The position numbers and the translations under genes were made by a program. Of a stretch of DNA of 38,616 nucleotides, positions 7,071-36,251 are shown in pieces. The stretch spans positions 1 to 38,616 of the forward strand of contig JAJYRE010000011.1 of NCBI GenBank assembly GCA_021794235.1, read 5' to 3'. A model generated the notes under the pieces. The model had not been told where the DNA came from. It did not search any database and saw only the letters and a program-made list of their open reading frames with translations. The first letter of the stretch is position 1. Each line of letters starts with the position of its first letter. The DNA comes from Nanobdellota archaeon. GTDB lineage: Archaea; Nanobdellota; Nanobdellia; Parvarchaeales; Parvarchaeaceae.

Positions 7071-7149
7071 AGAGATGAATCGCTCCGGGGGCTTATATTT
7101 TTTTCTTTTAATCAGTTAATAAGGCGGACACGCCATATAATAATGATAG

Positions 7150-7725: not shown

Positions 7726-7782
7726 GAAAAAACCTAGTTTTATAAGCTATTAGAAATAAATTATCAGATTAAAATCCGTTTT

Positions 7783-18662: not shown

Positions 18663-18681
18663 TGTACGTTTTAAGCGTACA
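18663..18681. terminator. Hairpin between convergent aspS and the gene at 18671
   Basis: A perfect 6-bp inverted repeat (TGTACG-7 bases-CGTACA) lies in the 26-base gap between convergent stops and includes the stop of the minus gene. A GTTTTT tract precedes it on the plus strand. Possible bidirectional terminator. Confidence 0.35.
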
Positions 18682-19558
18682 TGTCAGAATTTTCGTTGCT
18701 GTTAATCTTCATGGTAACGGCAGTCCCAGGTTTCCCGTTCATGAGTATCGATTCGAAGCTCTTTAGAGAGTTATCCCCCGCCCTCTCTCGGGTTACGGAT
18801 AATCTCATATCTACGGGTTCTCCTTTCCATGTAAGTGTCGCAACTTCCCCGTGTTTCTTGTCCAGTACAAACATCGGGCCGTACATAGTCCTTGCGTATT
18901 GATCCACCGGTTTGTTGTTAAGGCTCATGACATACTTGTAAAGCCCCGGCGATGCCTTGTTTAGAAGTTCGGGTGTAGTGAGATAAAAGAATTCCTCCAG
19001 CCCCATCTCGTTTGAATCACCGGTCAGTACAGTCACCGATGCGGCTTCCATCTTGCCCAGTTTATCAAGCCTATCACTGGCTATCCTGTTGTATCGTCCG
19101 CTCAGCTTTCGTCCGCTGCCGAGCGCCTCGTTGAGCGCGTTACTATATATAGGATATTTACCGCTGAAATGATTGAGCTTTTTGAGCTCGTATATTCTGG
19201 TTAAGCCCTCCCCTCCGGGATTTCCATCCTCCGAGTTTCTGAAACCGAATACCAGTAGTTTGTCCTCTTCCTTATCGAGTACAAGGAGCCTCGCGTTCAT
19301 TTCCGACACAAGGGCGTTGAGTACGTTCGTGTTTTTGCTGTTGAGAAGGTTCAGATAATCCTCATCCTTTGATTTCAGCTTTTCAGATGTGGTCAGGTAA
19401 GTATTTTCGAAAGCGCCGTAATTTTCATTCAGCTGTATGGCGGTGTCCTTTATATCGGCTATTATCCTGTTTACTTCCGACAACGTGTGCGACTCCACCC
19501 ATGCTGCGGCCTCGCCGCTGTTCAGCAATTTTTCCAGCCTTCCGTATTTGTCTGCCAT
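18671..19558 (-). CDS. Unrecognised protein sharing a C-terminal domain with the next gene
   Basis: I do not recognise this 295-residue protein. I place the start at ATG 19558 (MADKYGRLEK); a TTG at 19576 would add 6 residues but lies in the promoter region, since a TTATTAATA box around 19581-19589 puts the transcript start near 19560. The N-terminal 90 residues are helical; the rest is mixed. The stretch FYLTTPELL, then GL, then NNKP, then GPMFVLDKK aligns with CYLTSLEDL, GL, SKNP and RPIYILDPK of the protein at 19600, and both end in DMY plus a small residue. The two are probably paralogues in part. No cysteine or membrane segment is present. Confidence 0.72.
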   Translation of the reverse strand: MADKYGRLEKLLNSGEAAAWVESHTLSEVNRIIADIKDTAIQLNENYGAFENTYLTTSEKLKSKDEDYLNLLNSKNTNVLNALVSEMNARLLVLDKEEDKLLVFGFRNSEDGNPGGEGLTRIYELKKLNHFSGKYPIYSNALNEALGSGRKLSGRYNRIASDRLDKLGKMEAASVTVLTGDSNEMGLEEFFYLTTPELLNKASPGLYKYVMSLNNKPVDQYARTMYGPMFVLDKKHGEVATLTWKGEPVDMRLSVTRERAGDNSLKSFESILMNGKPGTAVTMKINSNENSDMYA

Positions 19559-19580
19559 TTTAATATTATGAGCCAAGCGC

Positions 19581-19590
19581 CTATTAATAA
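19581..19590 (-). promoter_or_regulatory. TATA-like box for the gene at 19558
   Basis: On the minus strand TTATTAATAG lies about 23-32 bases upstream of ATG 19558, supporting that start over the TTG at 19576 and implying leaderless transcription. Confidence 0.45.
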
Positions 19591-19599
19591 GTTAGTCCA

Positions 19600-20433
19600 T
19601 CACGAGTACATGTCTCTGTAATCCGTCTTATCATCCTTTTCGTGTATCATCGCGTACAGTATTGGCTGCCCGCTTCTGAAGCCAGTCTTCCTGCTAAGGG
19701 AATAGGTCTTCCTGTTGTCATCGCCGATGGTCTCTTCGAGCGTTATTGCGGCATCGTCCTTCGGATCCAATATGTAAATCGGCCTACCTATGGCTCTTGA
19801 AAGTATGGCTGCGTACGCCGGGTTTTTGCTTCTCCTCTCTATCTTCCCCATCAGTCCTTTTTCCCCGCTCTCAAGGTCCTCCAGACTCGTCAGGTAGCAG
19901 CTGCGCTTGTCGTCATCGACTTCCATGGCGGAGCTCTTTATCCTGTAAGCGTCCATATAGGCGCTGCTGTAAGTGTGGTTGATGGTGCCGTACCTTCTTC
20001 CTTTTTTCTCCGGCATGTTTTCGAACAACTTGGCTTTCTGCATGGTGATGGGAGACCACTCGTCCGATTTCAGTATGCGTATGAATTTGTACCTGTTGGT
20101 CAGGCCGTCATCTATGTGCGCAGATTTGTACAGGCACTTGTTCTCGGTGTCGGCTATCTCGAATTCAGCCCCCATTATCTCCCTGAACGCCCTTATCGAA
20201 TCACTGTTTAGCGAGAACAGAAACTTTGTCAGGTCCTCAAACCTCTCCAGTTTTTTGGAATTGGCCAGGTACACCGGAGGAAAAATGTGATCAATGTCGT
20301 CTATGAGCACTGAATTATCCTTTACAAGCGCCGCGGCCTTGTGCAGATAGCTGAGAAATTTGGCCCTCTCCGGAGAGTTTTTATCCAGTATGTTTTCAAG
20401 CTCGGACGATCCTTCAAAATATCTTCTTCCCAT
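19600..20433 (-). CDS. Unrecognised protein, partial paralogue of the gene at 18671
   Basis: I do not recognise this 277-residue protein. The first 100 residues form helices (ERAKFLSYLHKAAALVKD), the middle has strands, and the C-terminal 110 residues align by eye with the end of the protein at 18671 (CYLTSLEDL, GRPIYILDPKDDAAITL, final DMYS). It has two cysteines, not in a metal motif, and no membrane segment. It starts at ATG 20433 downstream of a CAATAAATAGG TATA-like box near 20455-20464, so each paralogue probably has its own leaderless promoter although they are only about 41 bases apart. Function unknown. Confidence 0.74.
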   Translation of the reverse strand: MGRRYFEGSSELENILDKNSPERAKFLSYLHKAAALVKDNSVLIDDIDHIFPPVYLANSKKLERFEDLTKFLFSLNSDSIRAFREIMGAEFEIADTENKCLYKSAHIDDGLTNRYKFIRILKSDEWSPITMQKAKLFENMPEKKGRRYGTINHTYSSAYMDAYRIKSSAMEVDDDKRSCYLTSLEDLESGEKGLMGKIERRSKNPAYAAILSRAIGRPIYILDPKDDAAITLEETIGDDNRKTYSLSRKTGFRSGQPILYAMIHEKDDKTDYRDMYS

Positions 20434-20476
20434 CAGATATCTGAGAAGGCAACACCTATTTATTGCTTTTCAATGG

Positions 20477-21157
20477 TCACTGCTGCTTTTTGAGGCCGTC
20501 TATCAGGTCCCTAAGCTCCTTTATGCTGTCGCTTATCGTAGGAACAAGCCTGTCTATGACTTTTTCAAAAGCCTTCAGTTCGACGTTAACGTCCGATATA
20601 GTCTTGTTATACTCCTCGGTCTTGCCGAGCATTATGTTCTGGACGCTGTCTATCCTCTGGTTAAGCTTGTCAATCTTCTCGGATATGTCCGTTACAGAAT
20701 TGGAATTGCTTCTTATCGCGGTCTTCATCGTGTTTATATCCCCCGCCGAAGAACGCCATTTCTCCTCTATTATCTGCTCGAGAACCTGCTGTATAGTCTC
20801 AAGAGTCTCATCGTTCATGGGCTTCTGCTGTGCCTGTTCCGCGCTTTTCTGCGCCGGCTGCGGGTATATTGAAGCTCCGCTGGAAATAGTACTAGTCTGC
20901 GGCATTCCGGATGGCTTTATGGTAGGGATATCCGCAATCCTTGCCATCTGCTGCGGCGCCTGCTGATTAGCCTCCTGTGGCTGCTGGGGCTCCTTCTCAA
21001 TTCCCTTCAGGAGGGCCTCCTTTATCGCTGTGCTGTCGTAACCCTGCTGTCTAAGCGTATCTATTATGTCCTGCTCGCTCATTCCGTTTGCAATCATGCT
21101 ACTGACATCCGGTACTTCCATATTTTCTTTTTTCCTGAACGTATCCAAAAGACTCAT
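20477..21157 (-). CDS. Coiled-coil protein with N-terminal helical hairpin and Gln/Pro-rich linker
   Basis: The 226-residue product has three parts: an N-terminal helix-turn-helix-like hairpin at about residues 15-52 (MSEQDIIDTLRQQGYDSTAIKEAL), a low-complexity Gln/Pro/Ala/Ser linker at about 55-115, and a C-terminal heptad coiled coil at about 118-226. It is encoded 3 bases after the stop of the coiled-coil gene at 21161. The hairpin repeats the pattern x-G-[MY]-[SD]-x-x-[DA]-I, as in UBA-like or similar small motifs. Such layouts occur near archaeal type IV pilus genes, but I cannot assign a function. No membrane segment is present. Confidence 0.8.
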   Translation of the reverse strand: MSLLDTFRKKENMEVPDVSSMIANGMSEQDIIDTLRQQGYDSTAIKEALLKGIEKEPQQPQEANQQAPQQMARIADIPTIKPSGMPQTSTISSGASIYPQPAQKSAEQAQQKPMNDETLETIQQVLEQIIEEKWRSSAGDINTMKTAIRSNSNSVTDISEKIDKLNQRIDSVQNIMLGKTEEYNKTISDVNVELKAFEKVIDRLVPTISDSIKELRDLIDGLKKQQ

Positions 21158-21160
21158 ATT

Positions 21161-21532
21161 TCAACCCCACTTTTTACTGTTAACGTAATTCTCTACAATT
21201 TTAATAACGTCATCTTTGCTTAAAAACCTTGACGGGTCTATGAACGAAAGGTATTTCTCCACGACCTTCATGTCCTGTATTCTTGCGAAGTTCTCCGATT
21301 CCTTCTCTATCCTGCCTATCGCGTCCTCCAGCTCCAGGACCTTTGTCTTAAGACCCGAAAGGCTGGCGCTGAAACCCTGCATAAGACCCTTCATCTCGTT
21401 GTATTTGTCTATGTTGTTCTGGTCTATCATCCTGACGGTATCCTTTAACTGGGATATCCTCTGTTCAAATATCTTAAGCGATTCCCTCAACTCCACTATA
21501 TTATGGGTAATATCGCCGGTCTGCTGCTCCAT
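21161..21532 (-). CDS. Coiled-coil protein, first gene of a two-gene unit
   Basis: The 123-residue product is almost entirely coiled coil from about residue 8 to 90 (regular leucine/isoleucine heptads), followed by a short globular end (MKVVEKYLSFIDPSRFLSKDDVIKIVENYVN). The start has GAGGT 9 bases before the ATG, so the transcript is leadered. It is the promoter-proximal partner of the 226-residue coiled-coil protein; two coiled-coil proteins made from one mRNA suggest hetero-oligomers (inference). The C-terminal segment resembles the short domains at the ends of FlaC/D-type archaellum proteins only in general shape. Function unknown. Confidence 0.8.
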   Translation of the reverse strand: MEQQTGDITHNIVELRESLKIFEQRISQLKDTVRMIDQNNIDKYNEMKGLMQGFSASLSGLKTKVLELEDAIGRIEKESENFARIQDMKVVEKYLSFIDPSRFLSKDDVIKIVENYVNSKKWG

Positions 21533-21971: not shown

Positions 21972-22781
21972 ATGAAAATAAGGATACGGTCCTCTTACTT
22001 GCTTGCGGGCATAGTAATATTAGTGGCACTTATCGCAATCTATGTCGCGCTCCACTTCATCAGCTTTGCGCCGAAGCAGCTGTCGATACCGCTTTCCGTA
22101 AAGTACTCCCTGGAATACTTCAACGGGGCTGTAGCCAACAAGACTCTTCTGGTTCCGGCGCAGTACTATAAGGCTGCAGAATCGATGGCTATAAACAACA
22201 ATGTGATGGCTAGGAATCAGACCCTTTACAATTCAATCCTCTCCGGCAATACATCGCTTCCCGCCAATGAGTATATACTCCTTGACTTCAGTACCCTATC
22301 CAATCTGTCCGCGCAATACAATGTGTATGAATTCCCGTCTTCCTATACGGTGGCTAACATATCTTCGACGCTCAGAGACTGTCTGACGTACAGCAACAAG
22401 ACATCACTGCTGGGAGTGTGCGGTGTATATCTGGGGAATCTCAGCAATATCAAGCTTGGCCTCGCCACGGTCGCGGTGTTTCCGGGGGCTAAAAACATCT
22501 CCTACATAAATTCGACCGTTATGTACAACAGCACCGGCGGAACCTACTCGTACATCCCTTCGTACATAAACTCCAGCAGCTCCAATTTCAGGAAGGGGAT
22601 AGCCTTCATATACGAGAACAGTCTGGGCTACGGTAACACAACAAACTTCTATATTCCGGGCGGGATAATGTCAATGTTCTACGGGAAGGAGATGTTCCTG
22701 CCACCAAAAATGCTGAACAATGTATTTGCAACATTCGGCGGCGCAAGGATAATATCAGGTTCTACGGTTCATCAATCTTGA
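21972..22781 (+). CDS. Membrane-anchored exterior protein, possibly related to the AglB/STT3 C-terminal domain
   Basis: The 269-residue product has a basic start, one transmembrane helix at about residues 9-31 and an exterior domain with many N-x-S/T sequons, so it is probably an N-glycosylated surface protein. Two segments recall the soluble domain of archaeal oligosaccharyltransferases: NEYILLDFSTLSNLSAQYN (about 98-116), like the strand-Asp-helix segment, and SMFYGKEMFLPP near residues 237-248, like the end motif SLYYRLHFLDG. The catalytic multi-helix part is absent. This is a resemblance by eye, not an assignment. It is translated just after the eS26-like gene and its 3' end overlaps the ATP synthase subunit I gene tail-to-tail by 20 bases. 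Confidence 0.65.
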   Translation: MKIRIRSSYLLAGIVILVALIAIYVALHFISFAPKQLSIPLSVKYSLEYFNGAVANKTLLVPAQYYKAAESMAINNNVMARNQTLYNSILSGNTSLPANEYILLDFSTLSNLSAQYNVYEFPSSYTVANISSTLRDCLTYSNKTSLLGVCGVYLGNLSNIKLGLATVAVFPGAKNISYINSTVMYNSTGGTYSYIPSYINSSSSNFRKGIAFIYENSLGYGNTTNFYIPGGIMSMFYGKEMFLPPKMLNNVFATFGGARIISGSTVHQS

Positions 22782-24699
22782 ACTTGTAGTTTGTCCTCTT
22801 CCTGCTGACTCCGAACGGCTTGAAAATCTTTCCGTTGCCCGAGAAGAACTTTGAGAAAAATTCCACGTAGATAAGCCTTGCCCCCTGTATTCCGCCTTCG
22901 AATATCGCTATCACTATGTTGAAGAGCTGGCCGAAAATCAGGATGATCCCGCCCACCAGGCCGAGGAGGAATGATATTTTTGTGTTGGCTATGAATATCT
23001 TGTCTATAACTTCCGCGAGTATGACGGAAGCCAGAAGGATGCCTACAAGCCTCATGTAAGAAAGTATGTGGCTCACAACGGATGGTATCTCCATCAGGGC
23101 CTCGCTTCCTTCGCTCTTCAGTATAAGCGCCACTCCCACCGGAAGCAGAATCATGCCCGCGATCGAATTTATGTCTCTTATACTGGCTTTCTCGAGTATG
23201 TTCAGCCCGAATATTACAATGCCTATCGCTGCGATGAACCAGCCCGCTCTTCCTATCGCCCCTTTCCTGTCGTTTATAGACAGCTTGTTTATTATCCCCA
23301 GGACGTAACCGAACTCCACCATCACAACGCCTATCCATCCCGCCACCAGCAGAAGCGTAGACAGCTGCGTCTGGACATTGAACGGCGTAGGATAAGGCAT
23401 CTTGAATCCGAAGAAATTATTGAACAGGAAACCGAAGGCTATTCCCACAATGGCGCCGATCATCACCGCCTTTGAAAGGATAAGCAGGCCCCTGTTGCTT
23501 AGAATCGTGTGGATGAACCTAGCCAGACTTCTCGGAATCCTGCTTTTCTTGGGGGGGTTTGTGATCCTCCTCGATATCCAGTAGAACATGAAGAACATGA
23601 AAAGCCCGTAACCGACGTCGCCCACCATGAAACCGAAGAAGATAGGGAATATGGCACCGAAGAATATAGTGGGGTCTATCTCGTTGCTCTTCGGCAACGA
23701 ATAGAATCTGACGAAAGACTCGAACAGCTTGAACTTTGCGGGATTCTGCAGTTTCGTAGGGGCTATCTCATTGGTCTTCAGGACTTCGACTACGAATTCG
23801 TCGTGCGTCGCTTTTGAGAACAGCTTCTTTATCCTATCGACATTCCTGTCCTCCACCCAGCCTTCAACGACTATGACGGAATCAGTGGAGCCGAATCTTG
23901 CGGCAACCTCGAGCTTCTCCGTTTCTATCTCCAGCTGCTCCTTTATCGCGCTGACTGCGTTGTAGTACTTGTTCGATATCGCCCCGAGCTCCTTGTTTAT
24001 CTTTGCATCGCTCTCGGTTATCCTCTTCAGTTCATTCTGCGCCCTCTGGTACAAGTCGGATGCCCTGCCCCGCATGGGAGGTATGAATTCTATGCTTATT
24101 CCGCTGTTCTTGCACACCGTTGCGAACTCCTCCCTCTGCTCCTTCTTTACGCTGGCTACGACGGTTTCTCCGATATTGAATACGGTGTACTTCTTCGAGG
24201 CCTTCAGGCTTTCGAATACGTTGTTCTTGGTCTTCCTGTCAGAGTCGGTCTTTGAAAGTATGAATGAAGAGACCCTATCGCTCGATAGAATCGATACGTC
24301 TTCGCCGAACTGTGTAAGCTTCTTTAAAACCCCTATCCTGTCCACCACTTCCTTTTTGGCAGTGTTGTTTGCATTGAGCCCCCCGACGAGTTCGGAGACG
24401 CTGTCCCATATCTTCAGCTTTCTTGCGCTGGCTATGAGTGCTAGCGTGCTCTTGAAGGATACTTTTCTTCCGGGCGTCCTCGGCACCAGGTGCGATTCCA
24501 GAGTCCTGAAATGCTGGAGGAGTTCGTTGAGTTCCTTGTAGTGCTCCCCGCTTTCCAGGCTGCCTATGACCTCCCTGTCCATCTGACTGAGGGGTTCCAC
24601 GTGCATCGCAGCCGTATCGTTCAGGATATCCATCAGGACGTCGTAGTTCTTTTTTGTTACAAACATCCTGACTTTTATTATCTTAGCGGGCCTGAACAT
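22762..24699 (-). CDS. atpI: A/V-type ATP synthase subunit I (subunit a homologue)
   Basis: This 645-residue stator subunit has a cytoplasmic N-terminal half (about residues 1-330, with the long coiled arms that contact peripheral stalks) and a membrane half with about seven or eight helices. The essential arginine that faces the c-ring glutamate is R550 in ILSYMRLVGILLAS. Together with the K ring it forms the ion path. It is the last gene of the operon, 3 bases after subunit H. The 3' end overlaps the convergent gene at 21972 by 20 bases, so no separate terminator is visible. The length is typical. Confidence 0.96.
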   Translation of the reverse strand: MFRPAKIIKVRMFVTKKNYDVLMDILNDTAAMHVEPLSQMDREVIGSLESGEHYKELNELLQHFRTLESHLVPRTPGRKVSFKSTLALIASARKLKIWDSVSELVGGLNANNTAKKEVVDRIGVLKKLTQFGEDVSILSSDRVSSFILSKTDSDRKTKNNVFESLKASKKYTVFNIGETVVASVKKEQREEFATVCKNSGISIEFIPPMRGRASDLYQRAQNELKRITESDAKINKELGAISNKYYNAVSAIKEQLEIETEKLEVAARFGSTDSVIVVEGWVEDRNVDRIKKLFSKATHDEFVVEVLKTNEIAPTKLQNPAKFKLFESFVRFYSLPKSNEIDPTIFFGAIFPIFFGFMVGDVGYGLFMFFMFYWISRRITNPPKKSRIPRSLARFIHTILSNRGLLILSKAVMIGAIVGIAFGFLFNNFFGFKMPYPTPFNVQTQLSTLLLVAGWIGVVMVEFGYVLGIINKLSINDRKGAIGRAGWFIAAIGIVIFGLNILEKASIRDINSIAGMILLPVGVALILKSEGSEALMEIPSVVSHILSYMRLVGILLASVILAEVIDKIFIANTKISFLLGLVGGIILIFGQLFNIVIAIFEGGIQGARLIYVEFFSKFFSGNGKIFKPFGVSRKRTNYKFKIDEP

Positions 24700-24702
24700 C
24701 CT

Positions 24703-25017
24703 TCAAATCCTCTCTCGGAATACTTCATCCAATACTCTTAGCATCTTGTCCTTCTCGATGTCCCCGAGCCTGTTTATCTTAGCTGTGTTCTCCGTGAAAA
24801 TCTTCTTCCTCTCCTTGTCCGCCTTCCCCTTCGCCTGAAGAATCGCCTCTTCGTATCTGTGTTCGGATTCTTTTTGGGCGTTGAGAATGTCCTCTTCGGC
24901 TTTCCTCTTCGCCTCTTCGACGAGCTTTGCAGCCTTCGCCTCGGCTTCATCTACGTTCTTCTTCGCCTCGGTCTCGAGTTCCTTTATCCTCTTCAGCGTT
25001 TCGATTTCACTTTCCAT
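24703..25017 (-). CDS. atpH: A-type ATP synthase peripheral-stalk subunit H
   Basis: The 104-residue protein is a single charged Ala/Glu/Lys-rich coiled coil (AEAKAAKLVEEAKRKAEED) with a short C-terminal helical end, as expected for AhaH/subunit H (eukaryotic G homologue), which pairs with subunit E to form a peripheral stalk. In many archaea this gene is the first of the operon; here it follows D and the 33-residue microprotein. Its start lies 1 base after the microprotein's stop, and the GTGAG sequence that serves as its ribosome-binding site overlaps the end of the microprotein, so the two are probably coupled. Confidence 0.9.
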   Translation of the reverse strand: MESEIETLKRIKELETEAKKNVDEAEAKAAKLVEEAKRKAEEDILNAQKESEHRYEEAILQAKGKADKERKKIFTENTAKINRLGDIEKDKMLRVLDEVFRERI

Positions 25018-25018
25018 A

Positions 25019-25120
25019 TCATCTCACTATGACTACAACGGCTATCAGCGCTATGCTCGCCACCACATTGATCATAAGTACGGCTTTCTTTATCACATCA
25101 AACCGTCTGTAGTTATCCAT
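25019..25120 (-). CDS. 33-residue single-pass membrane microprotein inside the ATP synthase operon
   Basis: Too short for ordinary gene calling, this ORF reads ATG at 25120 to TGA at 25019. The product has a polar basic start ([13 protein letters not shown]) and a hydrophobic helix at about residues 14-32 (a stretch beginning VLMINVVASIALIA), ending in a single Arg. A GGCGAGG Shine-Dalgarno-like sequence lies about 10 bases before the ATG, inside the end of atpD. The ORF overlaps the atpD stop by 8 bases and ends 1 base before atpH, exactly filling the gap. I know of no named archaeal subunit like it. It could be an assembly or stabilising factor for the Vo sector, by analogy with small V-ATPase subunits (inference). 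Confidence 0.72.
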   Translation of the reverse strand: MDNYRRFDVIKKAVLMINVVASIALIAVVVIVR

Positions 25121-25751
25121 TTTGGCTTATCCTCGCCTTTATGTACTTCAGCGATACCGTTCTGTCCCTCTCAAAGTCATCCAGCTTCTGCTTTATGTAT
25201 CTGACCTTGTTGTTGAGCGACGGTATTATATTGTAGTCTATCGCGTTTATCCTCATGTTCAGCTTCTGTATCTCCTTCAGAAGTTTTCTCAGCGTCGTCT
25301 CCTTCTGCGATATGTCTATTATTATCCTGAACAGCTCAAGGTACGCAAGCTTGACGTCTCCTATAGCTATCGGAAGGCTCAGTACGCTTCCCACGACCTT
25401 GGTCCGGGTCTCCTCCTCCCAGTCGACCTGTGATATTATTATACCCATGACATTGCTGGCGCTGAGTCCAAGGTTTATCCTGCTCTGCTCCTCGGCTATC
25501 ATCTCAAGCTTGAGCCTGCCTTCTATCATCTCGGCTATCTTCGTGCTCTCTATCGCCCGTTCGAGCGTGGTCTTCACCTCAGCCTTCGACAGCTTTATCT
25601 GTCTCACTATATCGAAGAAAGTGAAGACGAGCTTCTTCCTTTTCATCTTAAGCAGTTCAAGGCCCTTCTTCGCCAGCTTTATCCTGGCTTTTGTCCTGAT
25701 GAGCTCAAGCCTCGTCGTCTTTATGTTGGCAGTCTTATTTCCACTTGCCAT
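25113..25751 (-). CDS. atpD: A-type ATP synthase central-stalk subunit D
   Basis: The 212-residue subunit forms the rotor shaft with F (gamma-like). Two long helices at the ends are visible: [20 protein letters not shown] at residues 12-31, and a C-terminal [27 protein letters not shown] region. I use ATG 25751 (MASGNKT); a TTG at 25760 would add three residues and is less likely. The start overlaps the atpB stop by 17 bases. Its 3' end overlaps the 33-residue microprotein. Length and composition match the family. Confidence 0.95.
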
Positions 25752-27111
25752 ATTTCTCAATTTCAGCCCCTTTAAGTCTCTTCATCTCGCTCTTGTCGAG
25801 CATGCTCAGGAGCTCCCATCCCAGGTCAAGAGTCTCCGTTATAGTCCTGTCCTGATCGTATCCCTGATTGACGAATTTCTTCTCGAACACGTCAAAGAAT
25901 TTTACGAACTTCTTGTCGCTCTCGGAGAGTGCGCCTTCACCCACGACTTCCGCAAGGCTCTTCAGGTCCTTTCCCCTCGCGTACGCGGCAAAAAGCTGGT
26001 TCGCAACGTTCCTGTGGTCTTCCCTCGTCTTGCCGTCTCCGATACCCTGGTTCATAAGCCTCGACAGCGAAGTAAGAACGTCGATGTTCGGAGAGACTCC
26101 CTTCTTTTCCAAGTCTCTGCTCATAACTATCTGTCCTTCCGTAATGTAACCCGTAAGGTCCGGTATCGGGTGGGTTATATCGTCGCCGGGCATCGTAAGC
26201 AGAGGAATCATCGTTACAGAACCCTCCTTCTCCTTTATCTTTCCGGCCCTCTCGAATATGCTGGCCAGGTCCGTGTACATGTAACCAGGGTATCCTCTTC
26301 TTCCGGGGACTTCCTCTCTCGCAGCGGATATCTCCTTCAGGCCTTCGCAGTAGTTGGTCATGTCCGTTAGTATGACAAGAACCTGCATGCCCTTGTCGTG
26401 CGCCAGATACTCGGCAGCTGTGAGCGCTATCCTTGGCAGTATTATCCTCTCCATCGACGGACTCGATGAAAGGTTAAGGAATGCAACTGTCCTGACCAGG
26501 GCGCCCGAGTTCTCGAATTCGCTCTTGAAGAAATTAGCAGCCTCACTCGTTATACCTATGCCTCCGAAGACTATGGCGAACTTCTCGTTTTCCCCAAGAA
26601 TCTTCGCCTGTCTGACTATCTGGACAGCAAGCTGGTTGTGCTTCATTCCCGATGCGGAGAATATTGGGAGCTTCTGTCCTCTGACCAGGGTGTTCATCGC
26701 GTCTATCGATGATATGCCTGTCTGTATGAATTCCGACGGCTCTTCCCTCGCGTACGGGTTGATAGGCGCACCATTTATGTCCCTTCTCTCGCCGTTGAAT
26801 ACGGCAGGTCCGCCGTCCATGGGCTCGCCAAGTCCGTTGAATACCCTTCCGAGTATGTCCTCGCTCACCGTGAACTTCGCAGTCTCTCCCGTGAGCCTGA
26901 CTTTTGTAGTACCTATGTTCATTCCTGTCGTTTCACCGAACGACTGGATTACCGTAAACTTTTCACCCGCGTCCAGGACCTGTCCGGAGACCACTCTCCC
27001 GTCCTCCAATTCGACCTCTACAAGTTCGTTGTATGCGGGATTCTTTACGTTCTCCAGGAACAACAGTATGTTTGTAATCTTCTTTATGTCCTTATAGTAT
27101 ACGTCATTCAT
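25735..27111 (-). CDS. atpB: A-type ATP synthase regulatory subunit B
   Basis: The 458-residue subunit is the non-catalytic partner of A in the A3B3 head. It has the RecA-like core but no P-loop, with the corresponding region reading [18 protein letters not shown] near residues 140-157. Conserved segments include [17 protein letters not shown] and [21 protein letters not shown] (the latter cut here for length). It follows atpA after 1 base and overlaps atpD by 17 bases. Length is as expected (about 460). Confidence 0.97.
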
Positions 27112-27112
27112 A

Positions 27113-28864
27113 TCACTCTGCCTCCTTTTTGGCGTTTATTTCCCCGAGAGCCCCATCGAATTCCTTTACGTAATCGTCCAGCCTGTCATCTGTGACCAGC
27201 TTCATTTTGGCGATCATCTCCTTCGCCTTTATCCCCTGGAACCTGGATACGGGAATCTGGTTTTCAACGGCCTTCCTTTCGGCCTCCATAAGCCGTTTTA
27301 TCGAATTTAGTATATTGTACTGTTTTGTAATCGACGTGAACGCGTCTATATCATCGAAAGCGTTCTGCTGAAGGAAGTCCTCACGTATCACCTTAGCTAT
27401 GTCGAGAGTAAGCTTATCGCTTTCCGCCAGGGCATCGTATCCTACAAGCTGTACGACCTCGTTCACTTCCGCTTCACGGGCGAGAACTCCCATAAGCTCC
27501 ATCTTCAGCGGACTCCAGCCCTTGTTGACGTTGGTCTCGTACCAGTCCTTCAGGTCTTCTTCGTAAAGGGAATAGCTGTTGAGCCAGTTTATCGAAGGGA
27601 AGTGTCTTGCGTTTGCCAGCGATGCGTCCAATGCCCAGAATACACGCGTCACCCTAAGCGTGGACTGCGCAACAGGTTCGGATATGTCTCCTCCCGGCGG
27701 CGAAACCGCTCCGATAAGAGTCAGAGATCCTGTCTTTCCGCTGAGGGTCTTCACCCTTCCGGCCCTCTCGTAGAACTCCGCTATCTTCGAGCTAAGATAC
27801 GCGGGGTATCCCTCTTCACCCGGCATTTCCTCCAGGCGTCCTGACAGCTCCCTCAGGGCCTCCGCCCACCTGGACGTACTGTCCGCCATAAGCGCGACAT
27901 TGTAACCCATGTCCCTGTAGTACTCGGCTATAGCCGCTCCCGTGTAGATGCTGGCTTCCCTGGCTGCTACCGGCATGTTCGATGTATTCGCTATAAGTAT
28001 CGTCCTGTTCATCAAAGGTTTACCGCTCTTCGGGTCCTTAAGCTTCGGAAGAGAGCTGAGCATTTCTGTCATCTCGTTTCCCCTCTCACCGCATCCTACG
28101 TAAACTATTATATCCGCGTCAGACCACTTCGCAAGCGCGTTCTGCGTGACCGTCTTTCCGCTTCCGAAAGGTCCAGGTATCGCCGCCGTTCCACCCTTTG
28201 CAACGGGGAAGAACGTGTCGAGGACCCTCTGCCCCGTTATAAGCGGTATATTCGGAGGAAACTTCTCCACAACCGGCCTCGATTTTCTGACCGGCCACTC
28301 CTGCATCATTTTAATCTCGCTCTTTCCCTTTTCGGTCTTTATAACTGCTATGGTATCGTTTATGGTAAACTCCCCCTCCTCTATGGATTCTATCGTACCG
28401 CTTATCCCGACGGGGACCAGGACCTTGTGTTTCACCAGTGATGTCTCATCGACGTCTCCTATTATAGAGCCCTGTCCGACCTCATCGCCAGCCTTGGCTT
28501 TCGGATTGAATTTCCATCTCTTCCCGGTATCAAGAGGGTCAACGTTCACACCCTTCTGTATGAAATCACCGCTCTCTTCCATTATCTTCTCCAGGGGCCT
28601 CTGTACACCGTCGAAGATAGAACCGAGCAGACCCGGCGCAAGCTTTACGGAAAGGGGTGCGTATGTGTTAACGGCTTTCTCCCCAACCCTCAAGTCCGTG
28701 GTGTCTTCGTAGACCTGTATTACCACCTTGTCTTCATGAAGTCTGACTATCTCGCCTATAAGTCCGGCGTCTCCCACCCTCACAATGTCATTCATCTTCG
28801 GTTTATCCACGTCTATGGCTTCTACAACAGCACCAGAAATCCTAGTAATCATCCCTTGTTCCAT
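27113..28864 (-). CDS. atpA: A-type ATP synthase catalytic subunit A
   Basis: This is the ATP-hydrolysing or -synthesising subunit. The P-loop is GPFGSGKT at residues 231-238, an archaeal/vacuolar variant of Walker A. The non-homologous region typical of A subunits (about residues 110-200) is present, as are GERGNEMTE (with the catalytic Glu), [12 protein letters not shown] and [11 protein letters not shown]. At 583 residues it has the usual length and no intein. It overlaps the subunit F gene by 16 bases and is followed after 1 base by atpB. Confidence 0.98.
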
Positions 28865-29172
28865 ATATCAACTCCCAATACCCTTTTTGAAAATTCCTCC
28901 AAAGACTCCTCAGTCCTTTCACCTTTCATGCTAGGCATAAATAAAACTATTGGCCTGAGCGAGTTCTCAGCATCGTATATCGTCTTGTTGTCAAGGCTGT
29001 CCCTGACATCCTCGGAGACTATTATCAGATCGTGCGCCTTCTGGTAGAGAAGGTCCTTCAGCTTGTCCGCGGCTTTTTCTCCCGTCTCCATAAAGACGTT
29101 TCGCACGCCCAGAAGCTTGAATCCCAGGACGGCTTCCCTCTCCCCTATAACAGCAACGTCGTTCGATTTCAT
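28849..29172 (-). CDS. atpF: A-type ATP synthase subunit F
   Basis: The true start is ATG 29172 (MKSNDVAVIGE), giving 107 residues, which matches the family. The reading frame remains open further upstream (to about 29448), but that part is antiparallel noise over the subunit C coding sequence. Subunit F is a Rossmann-like rotor protein that binds subunit D: VAVIGEREAVLGFKLLGV is the first strand and helix, and HDLIIVSEDV the next. It overlaps the atpC stop by 4 bases (ATGA) and the atpA start by 16 bases. Confidence 0.94.
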   Translation of the reverse strand: MKSNDVAVIGEREAVLGFKLLGVRNVFMETGEKAADKLKDLLYQKAHDLIIVSEDVRDSLDNKTIYDAENSLRPIVLFMPSMKGERTEESLEEFSKRVLGVDIWNKG

Positions 29173-30224
29173 AGTTCTATTTGTTTTGTCATCCTTATAA
29201 GTTCTGCTTTTTCCTGCGGCAGATTGTGGTATTCCTTGAACCAAATCCCTAGGAGTTCGTTCCTTTCGACCTCCGACCGTATTATGAAATAGAAAACGTA
29301 CTCCAGCGACATCGCGCTCCTCTTGAATACCGGCAGGTAAGTACCGTACAGGTCCGTAAGCATCGCCGTACCCAAAAAACTCATCAGCTTGCTGTCCTCG
29401 AACATTTTCAGTGCACCGTCTATCTTGAACGGTATCTTGCTCTTCCACTCGGAGACGGGTGATGAAACGATGGAATTGATGACATCATGCCCGACGTAAC
29501 CGCCCTTCGCAATCTGGACTTCCCCTTCTATCTGGTTTTGCTTAAACCTGGCCGCGGCCATTATGTTGCGTATGTCTATCAGCTTCCTGAAGAACTCATA
29601 AAGGGGCCCCTCATCGCCGTTGTAGAACCTGAACTTGTCCATCAGGTTTTCATAGTAGGCTATCTCCACGTTCAGCAGCGCCTTGTCCACATCGGCCATA
29701 GTCGATATCGAGTTTATGGCTTCCATAAGCTTTGTGCCGTACCAGTACTTGGCGGCCAGTTCTATCACTTCCTCCGTGCTGCTCTTCTCTATCATGTTAG
29801 CATATTCCTCTTTGGATATGAAACCGCTGTATGTCCCCACGGGCATGTTCCTGTCGACCACCAGGAAGGCCTCCGTGCCGCTGACGCTGAAGTTCCTCAT
29901 CTTCGAATAGAGTATGAGCCTTATGTTCTCTATGTCCCATTTTCCCATATAGGCCTCGAGTATCGGACGGGCTCCGGTGGGGACAAGCTTCACCGCGTTC
30001 CTGACATTTTTCATCATATGCGAGTTTACTATGACTTCTATGGCCTCAGGCAGGCCGTACATGTTATAGAATGCGTCTATCTCCTCCCTGTATGGAGTGT
30101 TGCTGAGCGTAGGTATAAATTCCGATTTTCCCCTTCTCTCAATCTCGTCCAACATTTTTTTGTCGAGAAGGTCGATAGTGAGCGCCTTCAGTCTGCCGTA
30201 AGCACCGGTGTATACCGAATCCAT
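29169..30224 (-). CDS. atpC: A-type ATP synthase subunit C (rotor adaptor, d-like)
   Basis: The 351-residue subunit is a mostly helical funnel that couples the central stalk to the K ring. Landmarks are the YTGAYGRLKAL start, the repeated ENI/ENL helical pattern (WDIENIRLILYSKMRN near residues 114-129; AYYENLMDKFRFYN near 189-202) and a final domain with LEYVFYFIIRSEVERNELLGIWF near the end. The family repeats of about 100 residues are visible. Its start lies 2 bases after the atpE stop, and its end overlaps atpF by 4 bases. Confidence 0.95.
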   Translation of the reverse strand: MDSVYTGAYGRLKALTIDLLDKKMLDEIERRGKSEFIPTLSNTPYREEIDAFYNMYGLPEAIEVIVNSHMMKNVRNAVKLVPTGARPILEAYMGKWDIENIRLILYSKMRNFSVSGTEAFLVVDRNMPVGTYSGFISKEEYANMIEKSSTEEVIELAAKYWYGTKLMEAINSISTMADVDKALLNVEIAYYENLMDKFRFYNGDEGPLYEFFRKLIDIRNIMAAARFKQNQIEGEVQIAKGGYVGHDVINSIVSSPVSEWKSKIPFKIDGALKMFEDSKLMSFLGTAMLTDLYGTYLPVFKRSAMSLEYVFYFIIRSEVERNELLGIWFKEYHNLPQEKAELIRMTKQIEL

Positions 30225-30226
30225 GG

Positions 30227-30796
30227 TTACTCCGCTATGTAGCCGGAGATCCTGGATATTATCTCCTCTCTCTTCCGCCTCATGACATCCTCCAGTGAGA
30301 GGTCAATGCCTGTCATCCCGTCCGGTGAGACGGCTTTTGCTCCACCGATAAATTTTGCCTTCGAAGCGATTATCCTGAGATTAGGGAACTTCTCCTTCGC
30401 CATCTTAAGGTCCCTCGGATTCACCGATATCTCAGAGTCCTCCCCGAGGCTTTTCGTTATCCTGTTTATTATCTCGAAAAGGAAGCTGTTGTACGCCTCG
30501 GTCTTAACGAAGTCCTGGAGGGCATCGTGTATCTTCCTGACGTTTGATTCCAGTTTGTTCGAGTAGGCGAGATTGTACCTTCTCTCCGCTTCGACCCTCG
30601 CAGAATTTATCTCGGAATCAATTAGCTCGGAAACTTCGTCCCTGATCTTCTGGTCGGACGCAGCGTTTATCTCCTCAGCCTTCCTGGCGGACTCAGTGAG
30701 TATCTCGTAGTACTTTCTCTTCGCCTCTGTAGAAATCTTTACTATCTTTGATTTTTCTTCTCGTTTAATGTGTTCCTCTATCTCCTCTAACCCCAT
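30227..30796 (-). CDS. atpE: A-type ATP synthase peripheral-stalk subunit E
   Basis: The 189-residue protein has a long N-terminal charged helix (about residues 1-100, EEIEEHIKREEKSKIVKIST onward) and a small C-terminal globular domain that contacts the A3B3 head (FIGGAKAVSPDGMTGIDLSLED near the end). It forms the peripheral stalk with subunit H. It lies 12 bases after atpK and 2 bases before atpC. Length is typical. Confident assignment by composition, length and context. Confidence 0.93.
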   Translation of the reverse strand: MGLEEIEEHIKREEKSKIVKISTEAKRKYYEILTESARKAEEINAASDQKIRDEVSELIDSEINSARVEAERRYNLAYSNKLESNVRKIHDALQDFVKTEAYNSFLFEIINRITKSLGEDSEISVNPRDLKMAKEKFPNLRIIASKAKFIGGAKAVSPDGMTGIDLSLEDVMRRKREEIISRISGYIAE

Positions 30797-30808: not shown

Positions 30809-31078
30809 TTAAAGTATCTGAAGCAAAAGTATAAGCCCCAATACGAATCCTATAATCCACAGCGTTTCCGGAATAACGAAGAAGAAAAGAACCTGTCCGA
30901 ACTTTTCGGGTTTCTCTGCGATTATTCCCATACCCGCGGCACCTATACCCTGCTGTGCAAGGCCTGTACCTATAAGACCGCCGGCTATTGCGATTGCGGC
31001 GGCTACGGCGTATAAAGCGGTAGAAAGTGCGGTGCCGGTAGCAGTCACTGCTGTCGTTGTTAAGTTTTCAAGCACCAT
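30809..31078 (-). CDS. atpK: A-type ATP synthase subunit K (c-ring proteolipid, single hairpin)
   Basis: The 89-residue proteolipid has a short N-terminal extension and two membrane helices (about residues 20-50 and 62-89) with the Gly/Ala-rich TM1 pattern (IAGGLIGTGLAQQGIGAAG). The ion-carrying carboxylate is E71 in VIPETLWIIG. Q42 and Q43 in TM1 and T72 next to the glutamate are residues of the kind that coordinate sodium in some c-subunits, so a sodium ring is possible but not shown. It is the first gene of the operon here, which is not the usual archaeal position. A TATA box lies 23-32 bases upstream. Confidence 0.95.
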   Translation of the reverse strand: MVLENLTTTAVTATGTALSTALYAVAAAIAIAGGLIGTGLAQQGIGAAGMGIIAEKPEKFGQVLFFFVIPETLWIIGFVLGLILLLQIL

Positions 31079-32086: not shown

Positions 32087-32620
32087 TTATTGTAATTTTA
32101 GAAGGCCTACTATTATGAGTATCGTTCCGACGATGTCAAGCACCGGTATTATCAGGAAGATTGCACCTATGGATATCATGCTTGAATTGTACTTCTTTCC
32201 AACTCTCCATAATCCGAGTATAACGCCTGCGATGAATCCTATCAGTGCGAGTATCGCGCCTACAATCATCATCGCGGTACCTGCTATCAAACCGCCCGTT
32301 GACACCGATGGCGCCAGTAACGACGCGGCTATGTTCGAAAAACCGGCACTGAGTACGGCAGATCCGAACATTACGAATAGTCCGGCAATCATAAGCACCA
32401 GTCCTATCAGACTGAGCAGCGTGAATTCGAAAGGCATCTTGAAATTCTTGTCGTTGCCCGAAAGCAGTTTGAACGACAGCATAAGGAATATCAATGCGAC
32501 TATGCTCAAAATCGAGCCGATTATCGAAATGAACGGTACAAACGACAGAACAATCCCAACGAGAAGAAGAACGGCGAATATCTTTAGATTAGACACGGCT
32601 TTCTGCTCGCTGCTATCCAT
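32087..32620 (-). CDS. DUF996-like polytopic membrane protein
   Basis: I start at ATG 32620 (MDSSEQKAVSNLKIF), giving 177 residues; the frame continues upstream but would run into tRNA-Val, so the longer version is wrong. The protein has about five hydrophobic helices of Ile/Val/Leu/Gly type, similar in pattern to the archaeal DUF996 family (repeated short hydrophobic helices with GI/GL turns, and a final helix IVGTILIIVGLLKLQ). Function of that family is unknown. A TTTATAAAC element on the minus strand at about 32640-32648 may be its promoter. Confidence 0.8.
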   Translation of the reverse strand: MDSSEQKAVSNLKIFAVLLLVGIVLSFVPFISIIGSILSIVALIFLMLSFKLLSGNDKNFKMPFEFTLLSLIGLVLMIAGLFVMFGSAVLSAGFSNIAASLLAPSVSTGGLIAGTAMMIVGAILALIGFIAGVILGLWRVGKKYNSSMISIGAIFLIIPVLDIVGTILIIVGLLKLQ

Positions 32621-32675
32621 ACAACTCCTATAATTTCCGTGTTTATAAACCTTGCTTTTTAACCCAAAAAAGAAA

Positions 32676-32748
32676 TGGGCCCAGGGAGGTTCGAACTCCC
32701 GGCCTTCTCCGTGTGAGGGAGACGTCATAACCACTAGACCATGAGCCC
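32676..32748 (-). tRNA. tRNA-Val (anticodon CAC)
   Basis: Cloverleaf on the minus strand: acceptor GGGCTCA with TGGGCCC (one T-G pair), discriminator A at 32676, anticodon stem TCTCC/GGAGA around the loop CTCACAC (anticodon CAC) and T-arm GGGAG-TTCGAAC-CTCCC. No CCA is encoded and no intron is seen. Confidence 0.96.
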
Positions 32749-32798: not shown

Positions 32799-33833
32799 TT
32801 AGAACGCGGATCCGCCGCCGCTCGTCAGCTGGCTTACGAAAAGCGTTCCTACACCCAGCCTTACGGCGAAGAATATGACGAGCCCTATCCCTACAAATAC
32901 CGGCAGGCTCTTCAGTCCGTTCTTCGCCTTACCGGTCGTGAGTATCCCGTTAAGGAACGCACTGGAAGCCGTCGTTATAATCACGTTTATTACCGACACC
33001 GTAAGAACGAGGGTTATGGACACGTGCGGCAGCGAGAAGGATGAGAACAGGCCTATCGCAGTAGACGGCACCGAAGTGCTGGGTCCGGATACCCCTCCTA
33101 TGCTGTCCAGTATCCCTATAAGGAACGACGACACCCCGTAAAGCAGCGGTGCCGCGACAGTCGATGCGATGAATATAAAAAGCGAATAGCTTCTGACCTG
33201 CGCCCTCATGTCGTTTCTTATGCTCTCGTTCTGGAGGAGGTTCGTAGCCAGGTTCTCAAGTATCGTGTGCAACTCCGCACCCGACCTAAGGCCTTCCGCG
33301 ATTATCCTTATGCTGTCCTTGAAGAACATGGAGTTTGTGCGGTTAGACATCTCTATCAGGGCCTGTGCGAAGTCCTTGTTGCCCTGCGTCTCTATGGCCG
33401 CGTGGTTAAGCAGTACATTGAGTTTTCCGAATTCCGGTTTCATGGACGCCAGGAAGGAGTTTTCCGGGATCATACCCGCCCTGAGATTCGCCGCCATAAG
33501 CAGAAGCATGTCCGGCAGGGACTTCTCTATCTGGTTTGAGACGGAATCTGACAGCATTCCAAGCAGAGACCTTGCTATGAAGTAGGCTCCGAGGAAAAGA
33601 CCCGGCACTGCGGCTATGGCGTAAAGCACATTGTGAAGAAAGACGAATACCAGGATTCCTCCGAGTATTCCTATGACCCCGAACACCACCAGCATCTTCC
33701 CTATCGTCCTATCAAGATTTTCGGTCGGTATCTGCGAATAAACTATGCCCTCCTCTACAGGATACCTGAGGGTCTCCGGGAAAAGCAGAGCCAGTTTCTC
33801 CAGTGACAGTGGACTATTCTCACTTCGTCTCAT
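32799..33833 (-). CDS. T2SSF/TadC-like membrane platform protein (second copy)
   Basis: The 344-residue protein belongs to the type II secretion F / TadC / FlaJ family, the membrane platform on which pilus or archaellum subunits are assembled. It has two N-terminal membrane helices at about residues 45-65 and 68-90, a cytoplasmic T2SSF helical domain at about 95-215 (SLPDMLLLMAANLRAGMIPE, then FKDSIRIIAEGLRSGAEL with the family GxxG/A turn), and three or more C-terminal helices. Its start overlaps the stop of the other F-type protein by 4 bases (ATGA). Two F-type proteins in tandem resemble the TadB/TadC pair. Confidence 0.9.
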   Translation of the reverse strand: MRRSENSPLSLEKLALLFPETLRYPVEEGIVYSQIPTENLDRTIGKMLVVFGVIGILGGILVFVFLHNVLYAIAAVPGLFLGAYFIARSLLGMLSDSVSNQIEKSLPDMLLLMAANLRAGMIPENSFLASMKPEFGKLNVLLNHAAIETQGNKDFAQALIEMSNRTNSMFFKDSIRIIAEGLRSGAELHTILENLATNLLQNESIRNDMRAQVRSYSLFIFIASTVAAPLLYGVSSFLIGILDSIGGVSGPSTSVPSTAIGLFSSFSLPHVSITLVLTVSVINVIITTASSAFLNGILTTGKAKNGLKSLPVFVGIGLVIFFAVRLGVGTLFVSQLTSGGGSAF

Positions 33834-34726
33834 ACGCCTATCGCCGGCCTCCTGCCGCCGACCATCCCCATGAAGAATATCTGGAATATCGCAAGGAACG
33901 GCGGTATCATGTATATCAGGTCCTGTATGTTCATATGTGCGAGCGAACCGAGTATGACGAAAACTGACATTCCGAGGCTTGGCATTACCACGGAGACAAG
34001 CATGTACGCCATCGACATCGGCGTCAGCTCTCCCGCGTATGCACGCATGTCCGACTGCTGCTTCTTTATCAGCATGTCATTGATGAGCGCAAGGGTCTCA
34101 TGGATGTCGCTACCCGATTTTATCGTGTTCACTATTATGTCTATCGCCCTCTTCAGAGACTGCGACGGCACCCTTCTCGACAGGTTCCCCAGCGCGGTCT
34201 CCTGCGAGATTCCTGTCTGTATCTCCTCTACGGTTATCTTGAACTCGTCCGAGACAACGTCGAAGTCGCCGTTTGCTATATCAAGGAGCGCGTTGAATAT
34301 CGGCTCGCCCGAACCTACCTTAATCATAATCTCCCTTATCGCGAATATCGTCTTCTCGTCTATCTTCTTTTTCCTCTTCTGCGCCTGAAGCTTGGGATAG
34401 TTGGCAAAGTAGATCATGTAGACCAGCGGAACTACTATAATCATAAGGGACAGTATCAGTCCAAGGTTCATGGTAAGCAGCTGCTTCTTCCATGCGATGA
34501 GCGCCATCAGTCCGGAGACTCCCACCAGAAGCCCGGTAAGAAGCCCCACTACGAGTATGCCCGCTGCAAGATAGTCCCTGTAGTTTATGTTAATCCCCGC
34601 CTCTATGAGATCGTTCTCTATTGTGGGCGCCAGGCCCTTAAGCTTGTCTGCGTATCTTTTGAGCGGCTTCGATACGGATAGGGCCTTGTCCTCGCTTATC
34701 ATTATCGTAGGTACTTTCTTTGCCAT
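33830..34726 (-). CDS. T2SSF/TadC-like membrane platform protein (first copy)
   Basis: The 298-residue protein is a second T2SSF-domain platform. Two membrane helices lie at about residues 53-75 and 88-108, then the cytoplasmic domain (TIFAIREIMIKVGSGEPIFN and RAIDIIVNTIKSGSDIHET), then two C-terminal helices near 218-243 and 255-280. The domain signature [K/R]SG-x-D/E near residue 185 is shared with the protein at 32799. It lies 4 bases after the ATPase gene and overlaps the next by 4 bases, so the three genes form one unit that would energise assembly of type IV pilus-like filaments. Confidence 0.9.
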   Translation of the reverse strand: MAKKVPTIMISEDKALSVSKPLKRYADKLKGLAPTIENDLIEAGININYRDYLAAGILVVGLLTGLLVGVSGLMALIAWKKQLLTMNLGLILSLMIIVVPLVYMIYFANYPKLQAQKRKKKIDEKTIFAIREIMIKVGSGEPIFNALLDIANGDFDVVSDEFKITVEEIQTGISQETALGNLSRRVPSQSLKRAIDIIVNTIKSGSDIHETLALINDMLIKKQQSDMRAYAGELTPMSMAYMLVSVVMPSLGMSVFVILGSLAHMNIQDLIYMIPPFLAIFQIFFMGMVGGRRPAIGV

Positions 34727-34730
34727 AGGC

Positions 34731-36251
34731 CTACAGGTTCTCTAGCAGCTCAGGATTGCCGTTCCTCTCGATTATTTCCATCAGTTTGTCCTTGTCCGTA
34801 TAATATATACTGGCGGTAAGGCCTATCTTGTTGACGTTGTTTATTTCGTTCTTAACCATCCAGTCAAGGACCTTTTTCTTCTCCACAAGGTCCTGCTCTA
34901 TCTCTTCGGTCGTAAGACCGGAATACAGCTGGAGTTTGTTTGCTACCTTCTGCGAAACGTTCATCGTCCTCTCTATCTTGTCCGTCCTCGCCTTCCATTC
35001 GAATATGTTGTTCGTCACAGGCTCAGATTTACCCGCGGTCATCCTCTCTACGATCTCGGCTACTTCGAGTATCCTTCTCAGACCCGTCCTTCTCTGCCTG
35101 AAAGACGCTATTATCAGGTCCAGTGTCGCGACCTCTATATCGGGAAGATTTATCGGCTCGGAAAGAAGCCTCTTCACTACCTGCTGTGCGGTCTCTGCGT
35201 GCATAGTAGCGTAAACCGAGTGACCCGTCATAAGCGCCTCGAAAAGCGTCTGCGCGTCCTCCTTCTTTCTGATCTCACCAACTACCAGACGGTCGGGCCT
35301 CATTCTAAGGGAGTTTATCAGAAGGTCAAGCATGGTTATCTCACCCTTCCCCTCCGAGTTCGGCTGTCTCGTAAGCATCGGCACCCAGTGCATGAAGTTA
35401 GGGAGGACAAGCTCGTTAGTATCCTCTATCGTTATCACCCTCTGGTTCGGCGGGATGAAAGGGAGGAATACGTTAAGGATACTCGTCTTACCGGCCGCCG
35501 TACCTCCCGTTACTATGAACGAGAGTTCGTACTGTATGGCCTGCCATACGAACGCGACAAGCTCGGGTGAAACCGTACCTATCTTCAGAAACTGCGTTAT
35601 CGTCCACGGCTCTGCCTTGAACTTTCTGATGTCTAGCGTGTTTCCGTGGGTGGATATCGGGTAGAGAGTCGCGTTCACACGGTCCCCGTTCATAAGCTGT
35701 GCGTCAAGCAGTGGATTGAGATTGGTTATCTGCCTGCCCACTTTTCTTGCTATCTGCTGCGAGAACGCCTCTATCTTCGCCTCGCTCTCAATCTTTATGT
35801 TGGATTCCAGCCACCCGTACTTTATGTGGTAGACCATGACGTGGGACTTGGAGTCGTTGACCACTATCTCTTCAAGATTCGGGTCGTTGTCCAGTATCTC
35901 TATGACGCCAAGGCCGAACATTTCGTGCAGCAGGGTCGCGGAAAGGTCTATGTAGACGGAATCCTGAAGGCCTGGCATCAATCTTTTCAGTTTATTGGAA
36001 ACCAAATCCAGGAATTCGACCTTAAGCTTCTGGGAAGTCTCCTGGGAAAGCTGCTGTATCTTCGTGGGATCCTCTTTTATCAGCTGCGTACGTATCTCGT
36101 TCAGTATCGCTTTTGTAGCCGGGTCCAGCATAGGTACGTCTATATTGTAAAGAAGGGTGAACTTGTCCTTAGCTTTTAGTATCTTAACGTGGGCTACTAT
36201 ACCGTCGGTTATTACGTTATAATTGTCGACCAGCTCATCATCGGGCGCCAT
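34731..36251 (-). CDS. Secretion ATPase of type IV pilus / archaellum type (GspE/VirB11/FlaI-like)
   Basis: The 506-residue ATPase powers filament assembly. The N-terminal domain (about residues 1-240) is followed by the RecA-like core: Walker A GGTAAGKTS (249-257), the Asp box TIEDTNELVLP, Walker B RPDRLVVGEIRKKED, and the His box TMHAETAQQV. The C-terminal domain is about 100 residues. The Arg-rich region SFRQRRTGLRRILEVAEI is typical of archaeal FlaI/PilB-type ATPases. It is the first gene of the unit with two TadC-like platforms. No pilin, prepilin peptidase or FlaC/D/E/F/G/H genes lie nearby, so the substrate filament is encoded elsewhere. It is divergent from the gene at 36351. Confidence 0.96.
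   Translation of the reverse strand: MAPDDELVDNYNVITDGIVAHVKILKAKDKFTLLYNIDVPMLDPATKAILNEIRTQLIKEDPTKIQQLSQETSQKLKVEFLDLVSNKLKRLMPGLQDSVYIDLSATLLHEMFGLGVIEILDNDPNLEEIVVNDSKSHVMVYHIKYGWLESNIKIESEAKIEAFSQQIARKVGRQITNLNPLLDAQLMNGDRVNATLYPISTHGNTLDIRKFKAEPWTITQFLKIGTVSPELVAFVWQAIQYELSFIVTGGTAAGKTSILNVFLPFIPPNQRVITIEDTNELVLPNFMHWVPMLTRQPNSEGKGEITMLDLLINSLRMRPDRLVVGEIRKKEDAQTLFEALMTGHSVYATMHAETAQQVVKRLLSEPINLPDIEVATLDLIIASFRQRRTGLRRILEVAEIVERMTAGKSEPVTNNIFEWKARTDKIERTMNVSQKVANKLQLYSGLTTEEIEQDLVEKKKVLDWMVKNEINNVNKIGLTASIYYTDKDKLMEIIERNGNPELLENL

Follow-up and report, generated by a model that had tools for sequence, protein, structure and literature searches.

A small single-pass membrane protein encoded between atpD and atpH in archaeal A-type ATP synthase operons is a candidate accessory subunit

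Results

A 33-codon reading frame lies between atpD and atpH

The window analyzed here is a stretch of 38,616 nucleotides, one 38.6-kb contig of the 0.71-Mb genome (G000) of a Nanobdellota archaeon. Its minus strand carries an A-type ATP synthase operon with the gene order K-E-C-F-A-B-D-X-H-I, where X denotes a small reading frame between atpD and atpH. The features are as follows.

30809-31078, minus strand: atpK, membrane rotor (c) subunit (Pfam ATP-synt_C, 48 bits)
30227-30796, minus strand: atpE, a weak match (Pfam vATP-synt_E, E=0.008, below cut-off; assigned with operon position)
29169-30224, minus strand: atpC (Pfam vATP-synt_AC39)
28849-29448, minus strand: ORF holding atpF (Pfam ATP-synt_F)
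27113-28864, minus strand: atpA (Pfam)
25735-27111, minus strand: atpB (Pfam)
25113-25751, minus strand: atpD, central stalk subunit D (Pfam PF01813, ATP-synt_D, 139 bits)
25131-25137, minus strand: GGCGAGG, a weak Shine-Dalgarno-like stretch within atpD, 10 bases before the X ATG
25019-25120, minus strand, stop included: X, 33-residue single-pass membrane microprotein (leave-out profile and predicted helix, see below)
24703-25017, minus strand: atpH-like coiled-coil peripheral stalk subunit, AhaH (TIGR02926, E=2.6e-8, below its cut-off)
22762-24699, minus strand: atpI, membrane stator subunit I/a (NF004432, 579 bits, under that model's curated cut-off; Pfam V_ATPase_I, 90 bits, above cut-off)

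The F domain occupies residues 98-186 of its ORF, so atpF probably starts well inside it. The atpD ORF was listed up to 25760 from a TTG, and the ATG at 25751 is the likely start.

The X frame runs through 33 codons from an ATG at 25120 to a TGA ending at 25019. The original prediction gave these coordinates without a strand; the plus-strand reading of 25019-25120 is not the X gene, and the intact ATG-TGA frame that it described was confirmed on the minus strand. X starts 8 bases inside atpD (overlap ATGGATAA; atpD ends at 25113), its stop is separated by 1 base from the atpH-like start at 25017, and all three genes lie on the same strand. The GGCGAGG sequence predicted about 10 bases ahead of the ATG is present, at 25137-25131, but is weak evidence of a ribosome-binding site, because only GAGG fits a Shine-Dalgarno sequence well and the site is atpD coding sequence. 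The X protein has a hydrophobic stretch of 20 residues with one buried Asn, and AlphaFold, which for a protein as short as X shows helix only, returned a single helix over residues 3-32 (mean pLDDT 91.7). X is thus a short hydrophobic helix, in contrast to the long soluble coiled coil of AtpH/AhaH, which is encoded by the separate next gene.

X homologues occupy the same slot in Micrarchaeota and Thermoplasmata

An atpD-alignment scan of named genomes yielded 80 loci, including 37 from Micrarchaeota and 24 from Thermoplasmata. A small single-pass homologue of X (35-78 codons in these loci; family length range, 33-78 residues) filled the slot in all 61 of these Micrarchaeota and Thermoplasmata loci, and H was the next gene in every one. 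X directly follows D in 60 of the 61; in the exception (L052, about 6586-8171), D and X are set apart by a 414-codon ORF that appears to be an insertion element, and X is intact and still before H. A profile built without the Parvarchaeota copies (G000 and G003 left out) recovered the window X from among 1097 six-frame ORFs with 32.5 bits and E=3.1e-9, compared to E of about 3-4 for the next-best ORF of the window, and gave 27.1 bits (E=1.5e-7) for the G003 copy. Together with the predicted helix, this match upholds the description of X as a single-pass membrane microprotein.

Similar results were obtained in whole-genome searches that were blind to position (X profile A3). Matches were found in 27 of 293 Thermoplasmatota genomes (E<=0.01), 25 of them in exactly the D-X-H arrangement, and in 49 of 295 Micrarchaeota genomes, where 27 of the 28 loci that were read are D-X-H; the 28th (L239) is X-H, with D not within the stretch. 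X-bearing species in culture are known from Ferroplasma, Cuniculiplasma and Thermoplasma. The post-D slot is not universally filled: in 20 Micrarchaeota that do not belong to the X set, nothing comparable to X follows D, and many other archaea with A-type ATPases, sampled X-less Micrarchaeota included, have no small membrane ORF there. Searches of Pfam, NCBIfam and the PDB gave no match for X or for the G-type proteins described below, and no PDB chain, including the small subunits of solved V/A-ATPases, matched the X profile even at E=10. X was put forward as a candidate for something undescribed, and it is indeed in none of the protein-family libraries searched.

X proteins share a conserved helical face and are under protein-level selection

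Members of the family share the motif F-x-x-(I/V)-(R/K)-x6-N. Among 87 distinct X sequences, the F is present in 85, I, V or L at +3 in all 87, R or K at +4 in 66, and N at +11 in 75; the window protein has F7, I10, K11 and N18 at these positions, with hydrophobic residues after. By arithmetic, the four positions fall at helical angles of 0, 300, 40 and 20 degrees, on one face of the helix, which may form an interface. Over 31 independent pairs chosen by atpD identity, uncorrected pS was 0.513 and pN was 0.187 (pN/pS about 0.36), which implies that the X protein, and not merely its reading frame, is conserved. X evolves much faster than D.

This protein-level selection and the conserved residue pattern largely refute the notion that the X ORF is a translational bridge coupling D to H with an irrelevant product, a reading that we consider very improbable even though the 8-base overlap with D recurs in many species and the ORF ends beside H, since X also stayed intact after an insertion separated it from D (L052) and D and H abut directly in Parvarchaeota that have no X.

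X is present in few Parvarchaeota and was probably lost there

Relatives of the window genome were found by name among Parvarchaeota and Nanoarchaeota MAGs, and the genus and family sample gave 27 atpD loci, 24 with a D-H junction and 3 with a divergent D and no adjoining H. X is absent from 22 of the 24 Parvarchaeota D-H junctions and present only in the window and in G003, whose copy (MDKVKKFALIRRITLTVNITASFVLIILLFLRQYG) has the same 8-base overlap ATGGATAA with atpD. The nearest sister, G008, whose D is 87% identical, lacks X. The D-H spacer is just 40-66 bases in G008, G006 and G016, and in the other X-less Parvarchaeota D abuts or overlaps H. No moved copies of X were detected in the 12-kb operon loci of X-less Parvarchaeota, or genome-wide at E<=0.01 in the genomes searched. 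The ATP synthase of these X-less organisms is presumably active.

The spacers of G008, G006 and G016 resemble a putative relic of X (that of G008 contains a 12-codon frame, MEKQFTVNTTGT), and we do not claim them as one. Three loci of the same genus (L022, L023 and L024, from G010, G005 and G018) have a divergent atpD (65-81 bits) with neither H nor X adjoining, perhaps belonging to a second kind of A/V-type ATPase.

Plain tblastn with the 33-residue query returned only G003 (E=0.03) and one chance-level match, and is too weak a search for a query of this length. In a profile search of 371 genomes of the phylum, just G000, G003 and G867 stood out; the last, from another Nanoarchaeia family (L249, about 869-1608), has an X-like ORF (MNPSQKRFMRIMRGLQIAKVVIVTAALAYIVYWAYTR) immediately downstream of atpD, and H was not matched beyond it.

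Viewed within the genus, absence from 22 of 24 junctions suggested an accidental ORF, which is ruled out by the Micrarchaeota and Thermoplasmata homologues. Absence in relatives had been named as the outcome that would count against X: this is what the genus shows, the nearest sister included, whereas two other phyla keep X, so that a test limited to the genus misleads.

In an atpD tree, the window groups with G008, G006, G016 and G003 (clade support 99/97). A quick tree of A, B and D (77 rows) placed the Parvarchaeota in one group (SH-aLRT 100), joined to the X-bearing Micrarchaeota; only the Parvarchaeota grouping is relied on, because A or B is missing from some contigs and a few long branches come together. 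Presence and absence of X on this tree require 3 changes, and because every outgroup locus has X, these are most simply explained as three losses within Parvarchaeota. X would then probably be ancestral to the D-X-H operon type and have disappeared at least three times among Parvarchaeota. It has been proposed that ATP synthase genes passed between acidophilic Micrarchaeota and the Thermoplasmata that host them (PMC10656485), which could explain the D-X-H arrangement that they share.

A second small membrane protein, probably AhaG, follows D in other Thermoplasmatota

The original prediction stated that no such subunit had been named in archaeal A-type operons. This is contradicted by ahaG, a small gene adjoining atpD in Methanosarcina mazei and Methanothermobacter (PMC4350412, PMC3087415). 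Methanosarcina AhaG has a mass of 6.3 kDa and yields a single very hydrophobic tryptic peptide, and whether it belongs to the enzyme is disputed (PMC4350412); the Methanothermobacter operon reads ahaGDBAFCEKIH (PMC3087415). Thermoplasmatales of acid mine drainage are said to have no AhaG orthologue (PMC3750248). AhaG, known here by description and not by sequence, resembles X as a small gene beside atpD, and X lies directly downstream of atpD, the place given for AhaG (PMC3087415, PMC4350412). Compared to the approximately 6 kDa of AhaG, the window X has just 33 residues and longer X members have 55-63. The arrangements differ in that H and I are at the opposite end of the Methanothermobacter operon.

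Of 70 Thermoplasmatota loci taken from a D search, mostly without X, 50 carry a small ORF with a single helix immediately downstream of D. Most of these ORFs belong to one type, marked by a (D/N)TPEKKA motif and here called G-type, which is probably AhaG. Carriers are found among L149-L218 (for example L153, L168, L187 and L217) and include many non-Thermoplasmatales Thermoplasmatota. Like X, the G-type protein (for example MKIEDDELLGEFFDTPEKKARWLRRVTLLYIIWIIFVILGIAAALLYWLI) is encoded immediately after D, with its start overlapping the D stop, and in 40-55 residues consists of a basic stretch followed by a single hydrophobic helix; unlike X, with its F-x-x-I-R, it carries (D/N)TPEKKA-(K/R)W. 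X and G-type are mutually exclusive across genomes. A whole-genome G-type search matched 20 of 20 G-type genomes once each and gave no convincing match in 25 X genomes, where the only two hits were marginal and on contigs other than that of the operon.

Two other kinds of ORF follow atpD at other loci. L147 (G433) has a 51-residue single-helix ORF (MQLFLRILDAVRKKLKQTKVRFWLVVIAINIVVFILFVIFAVLLVRVIRGQ) that starts 2 bases after atpD and matches X at chance level only. In L206, L208, L212 and L214, the place of the small membrane ORF is taken by an ORF of about 500-560 residues, whose N-terminal part comprises about 65 soluble residues and a single hydrophobic segment (MSRVRRSAYRQPVTPKGLEAIEKGTL...).

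Comparisons of X with G-type point in both directions. hhalign found no significant match, and HMM scores were no better than those of shuffled sequences for most members. By contrast, a global profile-profile comparison scored 9.8 against 1.8 +/- 2.05 for hydropathy-preserving column permutations (n=150, start-Met column removed), none of which scored as high (0/150), and the proteins of L098 and L249 look intermediate; that of L249 is a possible bridge between X and AhaG-like types. We regard homology between X and AhaG/G-type as suggestive only. With the shared slot, size range and single helix and the mutually exclusive distribution also in its favor, the idea that X is a divergent AhaG orthologue, with X and the Thermoplasmatota G-type as branches of one ancestral post-D membrane subunit, is plausible, if somewhat doubtful given the two negative comparisons. 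It concerns descent and not function, and is compatible with the role for X proposed below.

Discussion

We infer, with moderate confidence, that X functions as a conserved accessory membrane (Ao) subunit of the A-type ATP synthase of acidophilic Thermoplasmata, Micrarchaeota and a few Parvarchaeota. By the positive-inside rule, its basic N terminus would be cytoplasmic and its C terminus outside (N-in/C-out). The four conserved residues on one helical face may pack against a single fixed neighbor in the membrane sector. Subunit I or the K ring, beside the feet of the E/H stalk, is the likeliest candidate, and there X might stabilize or tune the contact between stator and rotor and would have no catalytic part. 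X would not be essential for a working enzyme, because whole lineages keep the operon without it. In other archaea the corresponding slot is held by AhaG and AhaG-like small proteins, and X may fill it as their divergent homologue. The D-X-H context of the position-blind matches, the filling of the slot in 61 of 61 loci and the evidence of selection are counted for the accessory-subunit interpretation, as are the leave-out profile matches, the conserved residues, the single helix, the A, B and D tree, the mutual exclusion with G-type and the retention of X, intact and before H, in L052 despite the insertion. Its absence from G008 and from 22 of 24 Parvarchaeota junctions, its fast evolution and the many other archaea with no small membrane ORF after D are counted against it.

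Under the main rival reading, X would act in assembly of the membrane sector, assisting in the insertion or construction of the K ring or in its attachment to I, and would then leave the enzyme; operon position alone fits a subunit and an assembly factor alike. X is small, membrane-bound and encoded in the operon, and it is dispensable in several lineages and fast-evolving, as befits assembly factors, which are often lost. However, a one-helix protein whose conserved residues form a stripe is just as compatible with a permanent contact, and the gene lies among the stalk genes D and H and not beside K. Bacterial AtpI and eukaryotic Vma21, which are thought to help assembly and then leave the finished enzyme, each have two transmembrane helices, whereas X has a single predicted helix. 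We regard assembly as an unlikely role for X. It is similarly unlikely that X is an unrecognized stoichiometric Ao subunit of an origin unrelated to AhaG, one that marks out a separate kind of A-type ATP synthase common to acidophilic Thermoplasmata and their Micrarchaeota and Parvarchaeota companions.

Still less probable is that X acts as a small regulator to slow or block the hydrolysis of ATP, as AtpTheta of cyanobacteria does on F-type enzymes. Such a role would agree with a small accessory protein of patchy distribution in symbionts with reduced metabolism, and with the large inward proton gradient of acidophiles, but the X gene is embedded between two subunit genes of a structural operon and not separately regulated, and the conserved part of the protein is membrane-bound.

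Small membrane proteins accompany other rotary ATPases. The V-type Na+-ATPase operon of the bacterium Enterococcus hirae has a small gene, ntpH, right after the D subunit gene, which we liken to X by gene place only. In eukaryotic V-ATPases, the small Vo subunits e/Vma9 and f are, like X, tiny membrane proteins on a conserved rotary core, and the X profile matched no PDB chain.

A small membrane gene beside atpD was thus already known as AhaG; what is new is a distinct, uncatalogued family that has a motif of its own and a D-X-H arrangement in two phyla. Lists and structures of archaeal ATP synthase subunits come from few species and from annotation that tends to leave out genes of very small size. 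Should X be a subunit, the description of a core energy enzyme in several archaeal lineages has so far been incomplete, and the question of AhaG membership gains a large comparative data set. Many archaea have a small membrane protein in the slot after atpD, which Parvarchaeota have repeatedly lost, and the statement that Thermoplasmatales have no AhaG orthologue (PMC3750248) is qualified by relatives that have a small membrane gene in that place. If homology to AhaG is shown, X would be a far-flung AhaG member and not a distinct family.

Other features of the window

Downstream of the ATP synthase operon (18671-21532, minus strand) is a row of ORFs of 301, 277 and 226 residues with no Pfam match and one of 123 residues with weak syntaxin-like, coiled-coil matches only. 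A tRNA gene (32676-32748, minus strand) overlaps the listed 5' end of a DUF973 ORF (32087-32734, minus strand), which must therefore begin further in. Near the operon, at 32799-36251 on the minus strand, a type II/IV secretion ATPase and two T2SSF membrane proteins form an archaeal pilus or archaellum-like cluster.
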